A stretch of DNA of 64,000 bases, from positions 1,139,501-1,203,500 of the forward strand of contig NZ_CP029257.1 of assembly GCF_024399415.1 (NCBI RefSeq). Reading direction: 5' to 3'. The notes under the pieces are model-generated. The model saw nothing but the letters and a program-made list of their open reading frames with translations. It did not search any database and had not been told where the DNA came from. The number at the start of each line of letters is the position of its first letter. Within the stretch, counting starts at the first letter, position 1. This document shows positions 33,591 through 44,821 of this stretch, piece by piece. The translations under genes were made by a program, and so were the position numbers. The stretch comes from Streptococcus oralis. Lineage in GTDB: Bacteria; Bacillota; Bacilli; Lactobacillales; Streptococcaceae.

Positions 33591-33825
33591 AAAAAGTCCT
33601 CACACAAAAAACTTGTGTGAGGACGTCGATGCGCGGTGCCACCTCAATTATAGGGAATATCCCTATCGCTCTTTCTCGCAATAACGAGTTGCACTGTAAG
33701 GTGTGCTCACCGAATTTTTATGATTTCAAATTCTTAAGTACATTCAGCCCAATTTCATCAATTTCATCTATCTGCTTTCACCAACCACAGACTCTCTAAA
33801 AAATGAGCATGATTACTTTCTGAAT
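33591..33825 (-). promoter_or_regulatory. T-box riboswitch leader of the ABC importer
   Basis: The minus strand carries stem I (basal TGCTCA / TGAGCA, then AGAGAG), the specifier-loop sequence CTGAATGTACTTAAG, the T-box core AGGTGGCACCGCG (33632-33644) and a terminator with the stem GTCCTCACACAAG / TTGTGTGAGGAC and T5 (33591-33624). Uncharged tRNA would favour the antiterminator. Using the usual spacing (GAA + 2 nt + codon), the specifier reads UAC (Tyr), not UGG. Confidence 0.9.
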
Positions 33826-33831
33826 GTTTAA

Positions 33832-41603: not shown

Positions 41604-42560
41604 CTATTTTACCACATTTTTTGAGAAATATAAGTGATAAAAGGCTGGTGGATAGAGCTTTTGGCGATTATTTTTCGGATTTTTTTGATAGTAAGCCTGA
41701 AAATTTCTATAATAGCTAGCCAAATCCGTTTCAATCTGCAAAAAATCACCTGACTCTATCGGCTTGACTTGAGGATACCAGTCGTCCAGTTGATGGTTTA
41801 ATAGATTGTCTCCTTGATAATAAGCTTCCTCCTGCTTCTTCATCCAGTAAGGTGTTTGGTAGTACAATTGCTGGCGAATGTAGTGACAGATAGTGGAATC
41901 TTGCATAACTGCAAAACGAGGCAGTTTTTGTTTTTGATAAGGAAATCGTAGAATTTGCAAGAGATTTCCTTGGCCATAGGGAAATTCCTTGACCTGAAAA
42001 TGAAGTTTGCCACGTAGGTCCTGATGTAAAAGGTATTTAAGTCTCAAAACTTGCTTTTTGAGATCCAGTTCCCAAACAAAGAAACCCATATTTTGACTAA
42101 AATAGAGGAATCCTCTTTGCAGTTGTGTTAACCGCTCTTTTAACCAGAGTTTTTCTCCCAGTAGCCAGATAACCTGATAGCCCTGGCTGCGGTATCCTTG
42201 ACTTCTATCGCCTAAAAGCTTTTGAGACAAGGGACTGCACTGAACCTCCAGAGCTAGTTTCTCATTGACGAGAACATCTGCTATCTGCTGAATCTCAGGC
42301 AGACTATATTCTAAGGCGACCTGATTGTCCTTCTTGACCCAATGATAAAGAGCCTCTTTATTTCCCAAGTGTTCTGGACTTTCATTCTCGAATATAGCGA
42401 TGCAATCTCTTAAAGATTCATGGGCGAAATGCGTTCGAATTCTCTGTCCTTGACGTAATCGTAGTCCGCCCCCACAGGCTGGACAAGTATAAGCTTGCTT
42501 GGTCACATCTTTTTCAAGGGCATTCACCAAATTCCCCTTGGCATCTCTGGCTACAAACAT
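41604..42560 (-). CDS. coiA: Competence protein CoiA
   Basis: A 318-aa late competence protein required for recombination of transforming DNA. It starts with a zinc-ribbon-like region (YTCPACGGGLRLRQG) and HFAHESL, followed by a PD-(D/E)XK-type nuclease core (DVLVNEKLALEVQCS) and a helical C-terminus. The ATG is 4 nt after GGAGGTAGCC. A near-consensus Cin-box lies just upstream, pointing to ComX control. Confidence 0.93.
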   Translation of the reverse strand: MFVARDAKGNLVNALEKDVTKQAYTCPACGGGLRLRQGQRIRTHFAHESLRDCIAIFENESPEHLGNKEALYHWVKKDNQVALEYSLPEIQQIADVLVNEKLALEVQCSPLSQKLLGDRSQGYRSQGYQVIWLLGEKLWLKERLTQLQRGFLYFSQNMGFFVWELDLKKQVLRLKYLLHQDLRGKLHFQVKEFPYGQGNLLQILRFPYQKQKLPRFAVMQDSTICHYIRQQLYYQTPYWMKKQEEAYYQGDNLLNHQLDDWYPQVKPIESGDFLQIETDLASYYRNFQAYYQKNPKNNRQKLYPPAFYHLYFSKNVVK

Positions 42561-42581: not shown

Positions 42582-42589
42582 TATTCGAA
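42582..42589 (-). promoter_or_regulatory. Cin-box (ComX/SigX promoter) of coiA
   Basis: TTCGAATA on the minus strand differs at one base from the streptococcal Cin-box TACGAATA and is preceded by a T-rich stretch, as such promoters are. Predicted leader about 15 nt. Confidence 0.75.
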
Positions 42590-42635: not shown

Positions 42636-43784
42636 TTATCTCTTTTGTCTCTTAGAGTATTTTTTCAGCATGGGAATGAGATTGGGAATCTGCTCGCTCC
42701 TAATGACCAGCACACCGTATTCCTGGCAACGATTGGCATAAGCAGGATTGATTTTCCCCGTACAGACAATTAACTTAAGGCAACTCTCCCCAGCAAAATG
42801 ATTGGCATAGACTTCTAGTTCATTGATGGCTTCAACTGATAAATCCGTCATCTTGCAGGAGATAAAGGTAATCGAGCGTCCCTTTCTCAGAATGACATCA
42901 ATCTCATTTTGGACATTATCCGCCTCTGGAAAGATGCCATTCCAATCAATCTCACCTCCTATCATGCACTCATCAAACAGCTGAGATTCAAGCGCCAAGA
43001 GATAGAGATATACCTCTAAAATATGTCCCTTATTGCGGCAAAAGACTTGAGCTTCTTGACTTGGAAAGCTGTATGCTACTCGTTTCTTGTCCTCGCTTTC
43101 AATACAAAGCATCCCTGCTTCCACAAGTAAAGGAATAAGGGATTCTGGGTAGTGATAATACTTGCCGTTGTTTTCCAGTATCTTTTCTGTCTCAGCATGC
43201 AGGTCATTGGTCTTAGCTAGAGAGAAAAATTGGGTTACTTGGTACCAGTGGACGGGATTGGCAATAGCCGAGCTGGCTAGCTTTTTGATGGCTGCAATTT
43301 GCTGAGCTGAGTGGATAGGGCGTTTTGATTTGAGCATTTTTCCACCACGCAAGGCTATCAACTGTTGGATGCTTAGGGTTGGAATGTCCATGTCTTCTTT
43401 TTCTAACTGACCGGCTACCCACTTGTATTGTTTTCTCCGCTCGACATCCATGGCAACGATGGGGAGCTGCCGATCCAAGCCGTATTGATAGAGAGATAAG
43501 GCTAGTAGCGAATCCCCACCAAAAACATCGAGAAGGACTTGGTCATAGCCTGCTAGACAATAATCTAACTGGTCTGCTAGTTGTTCTAAGGATAACTGAC
43601 GAAAGGTCACTCGTTGAATATGAGGTACCTCTTCCATGATAAACTGACGGAGAGAGAGCTTCTCTTCATTGCTTATTTTCGTCAAAGATAGAAAAAGAAT
43701 CTCGTCACAATCACTGATAAAGGCTTGGTAGACATTCTTTTCCAATACATGCCGATCATACAGCTCCACCAAAAGACTCGTCAT
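42636..43784 (-). CDS. CARF-like / PD-(D/E)XK nuclease of the DUF1887 (Card1/Can2) family
   Basis: A 382-aa protein. The N-terminal half (1-150) has alternating strands and helices compatible with the CARF Rossmann fold (MTSLLVELYD; DEILFLSL; QVLLDVFGGDSLLALSLY). A winged-helix-like middle (190-245) follows. The C-terminal restriction-endonuclease fold has E257 (GHILEVYLY), D296 (NEIDV) and C310-K311 (FISCKM). Known relatives (VC1899, Card1, Can2) are activated by cyclic oligoadenylate from type III CRISPR. No CRISPR genes are in this window. I choose the ATG at 43784, 7 nt after GGAGG, over one 16 codons upstream. Confidence 0.8.
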   Translation of the reverse strand: MTSLLVELYDRHVLEKNVYQAFISDCDEILFLSLTKISNEEKLSLRQFIMEEVPHIQRVTFRQLSLEQLADQLDYCLAGYDQVLLDVFGGDSLLALSLYQYGLDRQLPIVAMDVERRKQYKWVAGQLEKEDMDIPTLSIQQLIALRGGKMLKSKRPIHSAQQIAAIKKLASSAIANPVHWYQVTQFFSLAKTNDLHAETEKILENNGKYYHYPESLIPLLVEAGMLCIESEDKKRVAYSFPSQEAQVFCRNKGHILEVYLYLLALESQLFDECMIGGEIDWNGIFPEADNVQNEIDVILRKGRSITFISCKMTDLSVEAINELEVYANHFAGESCLKLIVCTGKINPAYANRCQEYGVLVIRSEQIPNLIPMLKKYSKRQKR

Positions 43785-43863
43785 TCGACCACCTCCATCA
43801 TAAAGACTTTCTTGCGCTGAGAGTATCAGCAATACAACTCTAATGCTCAGATTTCCTACTTCT

Positions 43864-43872
43864 AGTATAGCA
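43864..43872 (-). promoter_or_regulatory. Extended -10 of the DUF1887 gene
   Basis: TGC-TATACT on the minus strand with no good -35; leader about 70 nt. With the tehB terminator 55 bp... upstream in genome order on the other side, this makes the gene an independent transcription unit. Confidence 0.5.
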
Positions 43873-43903
43873 TAAAATCCTGCTTCCCCACTCTACCATC
43901 GCA

Positions 43904-43943
43904 AATAAAAATGAATAGAAACCTTGTAAAGTGGTTTCTATTC
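43904..43943 (-). terminator. tehB terminator
   Basis: GAATAGAAACC-ACTTTACAA-GGTTTCTATTC followed by ATTTTTATTT on the minus strand. It closes the long ybeY-to-tehB series. Confidence 0.8.
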
Positions 43944-43960
43944 GCTTGTAAAGATTTGAT

Positions 43961-44821
43961 TTACTTGATTTTCTTGGCTAGCATAGTCGCAAAGCGTAGT
44001 TGAATGCGATTACCATTTTCATCACGACGGTGCAGATGTCCTGGGTTTTCATTGTACTTAATCAATTCCCAATCCTTGTAGTAGTCCGCCAACTCCCCTT
44101 CTTTAAAAGTGAATGGGAAGTTGATTGAGCAAGGATAATCCTCTGTATCCATGGCACAGACGATAAGATTGTAACCACCGACCGTGGTGTGCTCCTGCAT
44201 ATTTTGGATAATAGCTGGAATGCGGTTCGCTTGTAGGAACATCAGAACAACTGTTGAAACGATAAAATCATAGTCTTGGCTAACACTGGCAGAATTGATA
44301 TCATAAAGTCCGACAGGCATGTCTAGATCCTCTTGTTCCACAATGCTTTGCAAGATTTCAAGGGACAATTCATTTTGATCCACAGCTGTCACATCAAAAC
44401 CATTCTGTGCGAGAAAGAGAGAGTTACGCCCCTGACCACAACCCAAATCCAAGGCTCTTCCAGGTTTCACCGTCTGCATAGCCTCTAGGACCTCTGAATG
44501 GACTGGATTAGTCTGGTATTTCTTAGGGAAATAATCCTCAGGTTTACAATAAAATTCCAAGTACCACTCTACATCGTCTGTTGCAGCCTCTACTCGGTGC
44601 CAGGCTTGCGGTTGCGCCATGGGATTGTCAGCCCCTGCCTCAAAGAGGTGTTCAGCTAGAACCTCACCATCTTCAGTCAACTCAATAAACTTGAGAGCCC
44701 CTTTCAACACAGTAATTTTTCCCCAAGTGCCGACTTTAGTATTGTGCTTTTGCTGAACAGCTTCAGGCATGGTTTGTTTATTCCACAAGGGCATCCGTTT
44801 ATAGGCAATTAATTTTTCCAT
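43961..44821 (-). CDS. tehB: TehB-type SAM-dependent methyltransferase with DUF1971 domain
   Basis: A 286-aa protein with an N-terminal cupin-like DUF1971 domain (about 1-90) and a class I methyltransferase domain (LDLGCGQGRNSLFLA at about 120). Named for tellurite resistance in E. coli; the physiological substrate is unknown. The ATG is preceded by AGGAAG, 14 nt after smpB, at the end of the rnr-smpB-tehB unit. Confidence 0.9.
   Translation of the reverse strand: MEKLIAYKRMPLWNKQTMPEAVQQKHNTKVGTWGKITVLKGALKFIELTEDGEVLAEHLFEAGADNPMAQPQAWHRVEAATDDVEWYLEFYCKPEDYFPKKYQTNPVHSEVLEAMQTVKPGRALDLGCGQGRNSLFLAQNGFDVTAVDQNELSLEILQSIVEQEDLDMPVGLYDINSASVSQDYDFIVSTVVLMFLQANRIPAIIQNMQEHTTVGGYNLIVCAMDTEDYPCSINFPFTFKEGELADYYKDWELIKYNENPGHLHRRDENGNRIQLRFATMLAKKIK

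Follow-up and report, generated by a model that had tools for sequence, protein, structure and literature searches.

A CARF4-type nuclease gene at a fixed chromosomal place in Streptococcus oralis and its relatives, mostly without Cas10

CARF effectors are generally regarded as subordinates of Cas10. What, then, does such an effector respond to, and what does it do, when its gene stands between tehB and coiA with no CRISPR system beside it? This question is raised by a gene in a stretch of 64,000 nucleotides from the chromosome of Streptococcus oralis, referred to here as the window, in which a preliminary description, made from the letters alone, had noticed a stand-alone CARF-like/PD-(D/E)XK nuclease. 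Several elements of the case are already known: each of the CARF families includes genes with no linkage to CRISPR (Makarova 2014, PMC4012209), VC1899 is a stand-alone DUF1887 protein, and the sequence type of the window protein is catalogued in PADLOC as PDLC01884, an entry that carries no description of a stand-alone site, distribution, or residue changes.

The family of the protein can be established from both profile and fold. PDLC01884 (CARF4--CARF_PDDEXK) matches 382 of 382 residues with 835 bits, compared with 115.7 bits for the next-best PADLOC CARF4 model (PDLC01895), and the assignment to the CARF4 family is far above chance. The Pfam family Card1_endonuc (PF09002) is present on some close relatives and reaches 17.6 bits in the window protein, below its curated cut-off of 26.4, and an NCBIfam profile search of the protein returned nothing relevant. 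A structure model attained a pLDDT of 91.6 when built with an alignment and 42.2 without one, and it matches Cdn1, VC1899, Can2, and Card1 over 330-357 residues. A full-length profile match combined with CARF and PD-(D/E)XK folds places the protein in the CARF4 CARF/PD-(D/E)XK lineage (DUF1887), as the preliminary description had proposed; the CARF-like N-terminal half that it had suspected is present in the confident model, which matches CARF chains there. Resemblance within the lineage can be low, with VC1899 (DUF1887, Vibrio cholerae, PDB 1xmx) sharing about 16% identity with the window protein.

The reading frame of 382 amino acids, beginning at an ATG, was confirmed on the minus strand, and a longer alternative frame of 398 amino acids would begin at a TTG. 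The features of the locus are collected in Table 1. The gene had been credited with its own extended -10 promoter and its own terminator, and both are found in the sequence. The promoter element lies at the same place in three second-clade loci (L046, L050, and L051) and is kept in both clades; a scan for sigma-70 sites listed no full site and no -35 matching it. The terminator-like hairpin comes from a scan in which 8 such sites were found against 3.5 expected.

Table 1. Coordinates of the CARF gene, its signals, key codons, and neighbors in the window
Feature	Position	Strand	Basis
CARF4-type CARF/PD-(D/E)XK nuclease gene	42636..43784	-	ORF, PADLOC match, structure model
CARF domain, about residues 1-150	43335..43784	-	CARF chains match model residues 1-134
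PD-(D/E)XK nuclease domain, about residues 241-382	42639..43064	-	Pfam match, structure model
Ribosome-binding site GGAGG	43792..43796	-	Sequence; 5' of ATG at 43784
Extended -10 promoter TGCTATACT	43864..43872	-	Sequence; also 5' of gene in L046, L050, L051
Terminator-like hairpin, T tail, 3' of CARF gene stop codon	42600..42622	-	Hairpin scan
Perfect hairpin 3' of tehB, terminator of upstream gene by reading	43913..43943	-	Sequence
Codons D91-S92 (FGGDS), where Can2, Cdn1, and 8bao have GGTK	43509..43514	-	Alignments; Ser92 replaces phosphate-binding Lys99 of Can2
Codon E257, counterpart of Cdn1 E274	43014..43016	-	56/56 aligned rows
Codons E294-I295-D296, counterparts of Can2 E276/D278 and Cdn1 E308/D310	42897..42905	-	E294, D296 in 56/56 rows
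Codons S309-C310-K311, SCK motif replacing ECK	42852..42860	-	56/56 rows
TTCGAATA, one mismatch to ComX (cin) box TACGAATA, assigned to coiA	42582..42589	-	Position after CARF-gene terminator, before coiA
coiA, neighbor outside unit	41604..42560	-	CoiA_nuc 92.5 bits
tehB, neighbor outside unit	43961..44821	-	TehB 316.8 bits

The distribution of the gene shows how firmly it is tied to this place. It was found in 56 of 284 Streptococcus genomes (the carriers), which include all 28 genomes with a coiA at 89% identity or more to that of the window, a second set at 60-70% identity, and one genome, G064, at 53%; the close loci that bear names belong to S. oralis and its relatives. The gene lies directly before coiA in 55 of the 56 carriers, the exception being G064, where it sits in a III-B locus, and directly after tehB in 53, the exceptions being G064, G074 (where the contig ends), and G230 (whose tehB is not within the fetched DNA). 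The frame is intact in 52 carriers and broken in G245, G125, G069, and G074. Among Lactobacillales, 5 of 217 genomes match, all of them Streptococcus, and across the phylum 6 of 299 do, comprising the genome of the window and five with partial matches. A protein search with the sequence of the window protein gave 707 matches, the best 120 of which are 93-99% identical. In viral contigs, a pattern fitted 40 stretches, but no relative was among them.

The preliminary description had read the gene as inserted between two genes that are direct neighbors in pneumococci, and had weighed against this the prospect of a core gene present at the site in all relatives. That prospect is borne out by the 28 genomes with the closest coiA and fails in G127 and G169, a further pair of S. 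oralis-like genomes, which lack the gene. Comparison of the tehB-coiA interval across mitis-group genomes, which had also been proposed, showed the gene in carriers and a gap of about 70-90 bases in 7 of 10 mitis-like loci with both genes, with a HicB-like antitoxin frame in the other 3. A tree of pepF with 53 rows gathers the mitis-like non-carriers in a single well-supported clade (11 rows), which lies nested within the carriers as the sister of S. oralis; the carrier label needs to change 5 times, compared with a shuffled mean of 15.2. Because of this nesting, loss is a simpler account than insertion; a fresh insertion is rejected, and the tree favors an old presence with probable loss in a mitis/pneumoniae-like branch, the non-carrier clade presumably being kin of S. 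mitis and S. pneumoniae. The tree of the CARF protein, rooted on a long branch and excluding near-duplicates (L032-L039) and frames shorter than 375 amino acids, sets S. oralis apart from the whole second clade, including rows that are nearer by pepF; since the two trees are not fully congruent, recombinational exchange of the coiA-side segment is possible.

Within both clades, the gene is under purifying selection, and its nuclease part is the most constrained. Among copies of equal length (24 of 26 in the S. oralis clade and 23 of 25 in the second clade), dN/dS in the S. oralis clade averages 0.084 for the CARF gene, 0.133 for coiA, and 0.045 for tehB, and in the second clade 0.132, 0.139, and 0.048, respectively. 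When the gene is divided, the nuclease part gives 0.036 in the S. oralis clade and 0.068 in the second clade, and the CARF part 0.099 and 0.189.

The impression that no CRISPR system is in view holds across the genome for the families searched. Genome-wide searches of the window's own genome (G000) with Csm1, Cas10 palm2, Cas1, mCpol, and SMODS cyclase families found no member and identified neither a trigger nor a synthase for the nuclease; these searches covered protein families, with SMODS as the CD-NTase family. A single weak Csm1 match, considered as a hidden Cas10, was rejected and named by reading as RNase Y. The hallmarks of an ancillary type III effector, namely Cas10 in the same genome and a position inside a type III locus, are both missing from this genome, as is the SMODS gene expected for a CBASS effector, and there is no defense island around the CARF gene.

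If Cas10 does not supply the signal, the ligand pocket may indicate what does. The contacts to cA4 reported as conserved between Can1 and Can2 are Ser19, Thr42, Lys99, and Tyr118 (Can2 numbering), and a profile alignment places D10, L34, S92, and A111 of the window protein at these positions, so that none of the four Can2 contacts is shared. The 17 streptococcal rows show D or E at position 10 (all 16 with a letter there), D at position 91 (17 of 17), S, N, or C at position 92, and, at position 34, the counterpart of Thr42, a Thr in 4 of 17. A similar acidic, lysine-poor pattern occurs in VC1899, which is reported not to be activated by cA4 and which has Asp9, Asp34, Arg96, and Val115 at the contact positions, differing from the window protein in carrying Arg rather than Ser at the place of Lys99. 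The earlier idea that the protein answers another nucleotide signal gains support from this predicted loss of the cA4 contacts of Can2.

From these observations, the reading that we prefer, tentatively and at slightly less than even confidence, is a CARF-gated standing defense nuclease that is independent of CRISPR and is not triggered by cA4 in the way that Can2 is. Expressed as a single-gene unit with its own signals, the protein would be made constitutively as a probably dimeric, ligand-gated nuclease of the Can2/Card1/VC1899 (CARF4) type. Its CARF dimer would bind an alarm molecule of nucleotide type, different from cA4 as read by Can2, the nuclease domains would then close, and the site formed by E257, E294, D296, and K311 would assemble. 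Cleavage of DNA, RNA, or both would presumably follow and stall the infected cell.

Among the rivals, the strongest holds that the protein is a permanent effector serving transient type III loci. It would act in trans, answering cyclic oligoadenylate or SAM-AMP produced by III-A or III-B/CorA loci as these are acquired and lost among strains; we consider this account doubtful. In its favor is the 53% relative in G064 (L072 9753-10949), which lies away from coiA in an operon-like series of Cas6, Cmr1, Cmr2 (with GGDD), Cmr3, Cmr4, Cmr6, CorA, a WDGH-domain protein, the CARF4 protein, and RT-Cas1; past this series come array-like repeats. This copy has the pocket and active-site signature of the window protein, including identical FGGDS and SCK motifs, and its genome also holds a full Csm1 elsewhere. 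A more distant SCK relative stands beside a confirmed Cmr2 in locus L115, whose other cas genes were named by reading frames. Co-occurrence points the same way at the level of the genus, where the excess among carriers is real in raw counts: in all 284 genomes, the Cas10 palm2 domain occurs in 10 of 56 carriers, compared with 16 of 228 genomes lacking the gene (p 0.019, uncorrected for kinship). Opened III-B/CorA loci occur in 5 of 56 and 3 of 228, respectively (p 0.009, also uncorrected), a set of 8 genomes that may be low, as the weaker palm2 matches of G026 and G243 and a second one in G198 were left out. The corresponding counts are 6 of 56 and 11 of 228 for Csm1 over the cut-off (p 0.11) and 8 of 56 and 19 of 228 for SMODS (p 0.20), neither corrected for kinship. 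Against the rival, 46 of the 56 carriers are without a Cas10 palm domain and the gene is constrained nonetheless, and no association appears inside the mitis group, where, among 100 mitis-group-like genomes defined by coiA identity, 9 of the 55 carriers and 5 of the 45 non-carriers have palm2 (Fisher p 0.57, uncorrected for kinship). Furthermore, the loci concerned appear to be provided with effectors already, the III-A loci of carriers holding Csm6-like frames (identified by reading frames, not by the family library) and the III-B loci holding CorA.

These III-B loci nevertheless suggest a possible ligand. All 8 of the streptococcal III-B loci examined encode CorA, and 3 of the 8 a DEDD-type relative, with none in the fetched DNA of G064. 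Chi et al. placed an S. oralis III-B locus with corA in the SAM-AMP cluster CorA-1 (PMC10600005), and the Cmr complexes of these loci may make SAM-AMP, a point that also lends weight to the rival. Since the acid-lined, lysine-free pocket (D/E10, D91) is common to the window protein and the III-B/CorA copy, a cationic nucleotide such as SAM-AMP becomes a concrete candidate ligand; if this is true, the protein would be a SAM-AMP-gated CARF nuclease. This candidate belongs to a broader proposal, which we regard as speculative and rather unlikely, of a CRISPR-independent second-messenger immune pathway in oral streptococci, in which the near-core CARF nuclease answers a non-cA4 adenylate alarm from a synthase not yet described.

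In the active site, the residues E257, D296, and K311 are where the preliminary description had put them, and E294 completes the set; they align with Cdn1 E274, D310, K325, and E308, respectively, so that the E, E, D, and K of the metal site are present. The caution that it had attached to the Glu of the ExK motif was well placed. Ser309 stands where Can2, Card1, and Cdn1, the cA4-activated CARF4 nucleases of type III CRISPR systems, have Glu, and where VC1899 keeps ECK. E308A, D310A, or E323A are each reported to abolish the activity of Cdn1, E323 being the equivalent of Ser309, and Can2 is reported to need E276/D278. On this ground, catalysis could be altered or dead, and the protein, instead of working as a nuclease, could sense a ligand, act as a ring-nuclease-like sink, or be a binding protein. 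Drift would be expected at a dead site, however, whereas all 56 aligned rows (17 of them streptococcal and 39 not, selected from longer lists) have the same residues at E257, E294, D296, S309, C310, and K311, the protein beside Cmr2 in L115 among them, and the nuclease part is the most constrained. Since Ser is found in every row, it is a feature of the lineage, and degeneration as the cause of the missing Glu is ruled out. In addition, the place of the Glu may be taken by one of two residues beside the site, D280, present in 54 of 56 rows, or E278, which all 17 streptococcal rows have and the others lack. Loss or alteration of catalysis is judged unlikely. The same SCK active site, with an IDW motif, occurs in Lachnospiraceae DUF1887 proteins (P0130-P0249), which share about 21-24% identity with the window protein and are unlike it in the pocket, with S at position 10 and GGSE or GGGE; by reading frames, no cas genes are recognizable in their context L116 or in L117.

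The preliminary description had allowed that the protein might act on incoming DNA, and a DNA-entry or competence nuclease working with CoiA would fit the position directly before coiA in nearly all carriers and the correlation of 0.92 between pairwise identities of the gene and of coiA over 46 loci. Nothing beyond position was found in favor of this suggestion. From 43785 to 43960, no ComX box with at most one mismatch, as expected for the late competence regulon, was matched. Near-matches in the window number 46 against 39.25 expected, no more than chance, so that the argument for assigning the near-match TTCGAATA to coiA is its position after the terminator of the CARF gene and before coiA; similar boxes precede coiA in mitis-like loci. 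With its own promoter and terminator, we read the CARF gene as a single-gene unit outside the competence regulon, and its regulation by competence is rejected. Moreover, coiA is present in 284 of 284 genomes, 228 of which lack the CARF gene, and the G064 copy is not at coiA, which makes a role in DNA entry very improbable. A passenger gene with no present role, to which the 4 broken copies and the mitis-like clade without the gene might point, is hardly credible in view of the low dN/dS in both clades and the invariant active site.

In the open-licence literature searched, the fixed site, constraint without Cas10, SCK site, and changed pocket of this protein were not found, which does not prove their absence from print. 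The window protein unites a fixed chromosomal place, strong constraint mostly without Cas10, an altered pocket, a changed metal ligand, and a sister in a III-B/CorA locus, and the question of what unlinked CARF proteins sense thereby becomes directly testable in an easily handled commensal.

Several minor observations were made on the related loci. The G064 III-B/CorA locus, with RT-Cas1, the WDGH protein (PF25311), and the CARF4 nuclease, occupies L072 7563-19493, and the III-B/CorA loci L094, L095, L096, L097, L098, and L073/L092 apparently share one chromosomal location across S. oralis-like and mitis-like genomes. In a III-B-like locus (L115 1212-9439), a CARF-RelE (Cami1-like) protein is encoded next to an SCK-type CARF4 nuclease, and L118 8843-11062 encodes a 739-aa Can1-like protein that combines two CARF stretches with a single endonuclease, all of Card1 type, near a frame that reads as Cas6-like.

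Around coiA, genomes that lack the CARF gene have, within or close to the tehB-coiA interval, a HicB-like antitoxin frame preceded by a small HicA-like frame (L081 4875-5279, L084 4195-4599, L086 4343-4747, also L067 and L079), and very large repeat-rich or surface-protein-like frames lie beside coiA or the CARF gene in the place of tehB (L034 1-5611, L077 334-4773, L067 6100-9999). Between groups, identity in coiA itself falls to 65-71%, a divergence far greater than that of pepF and tehB (about 89-97% identity). Elsewhere in the window, a T-box leader is located at 33616-33831 on the minus strand (102.6 bits).
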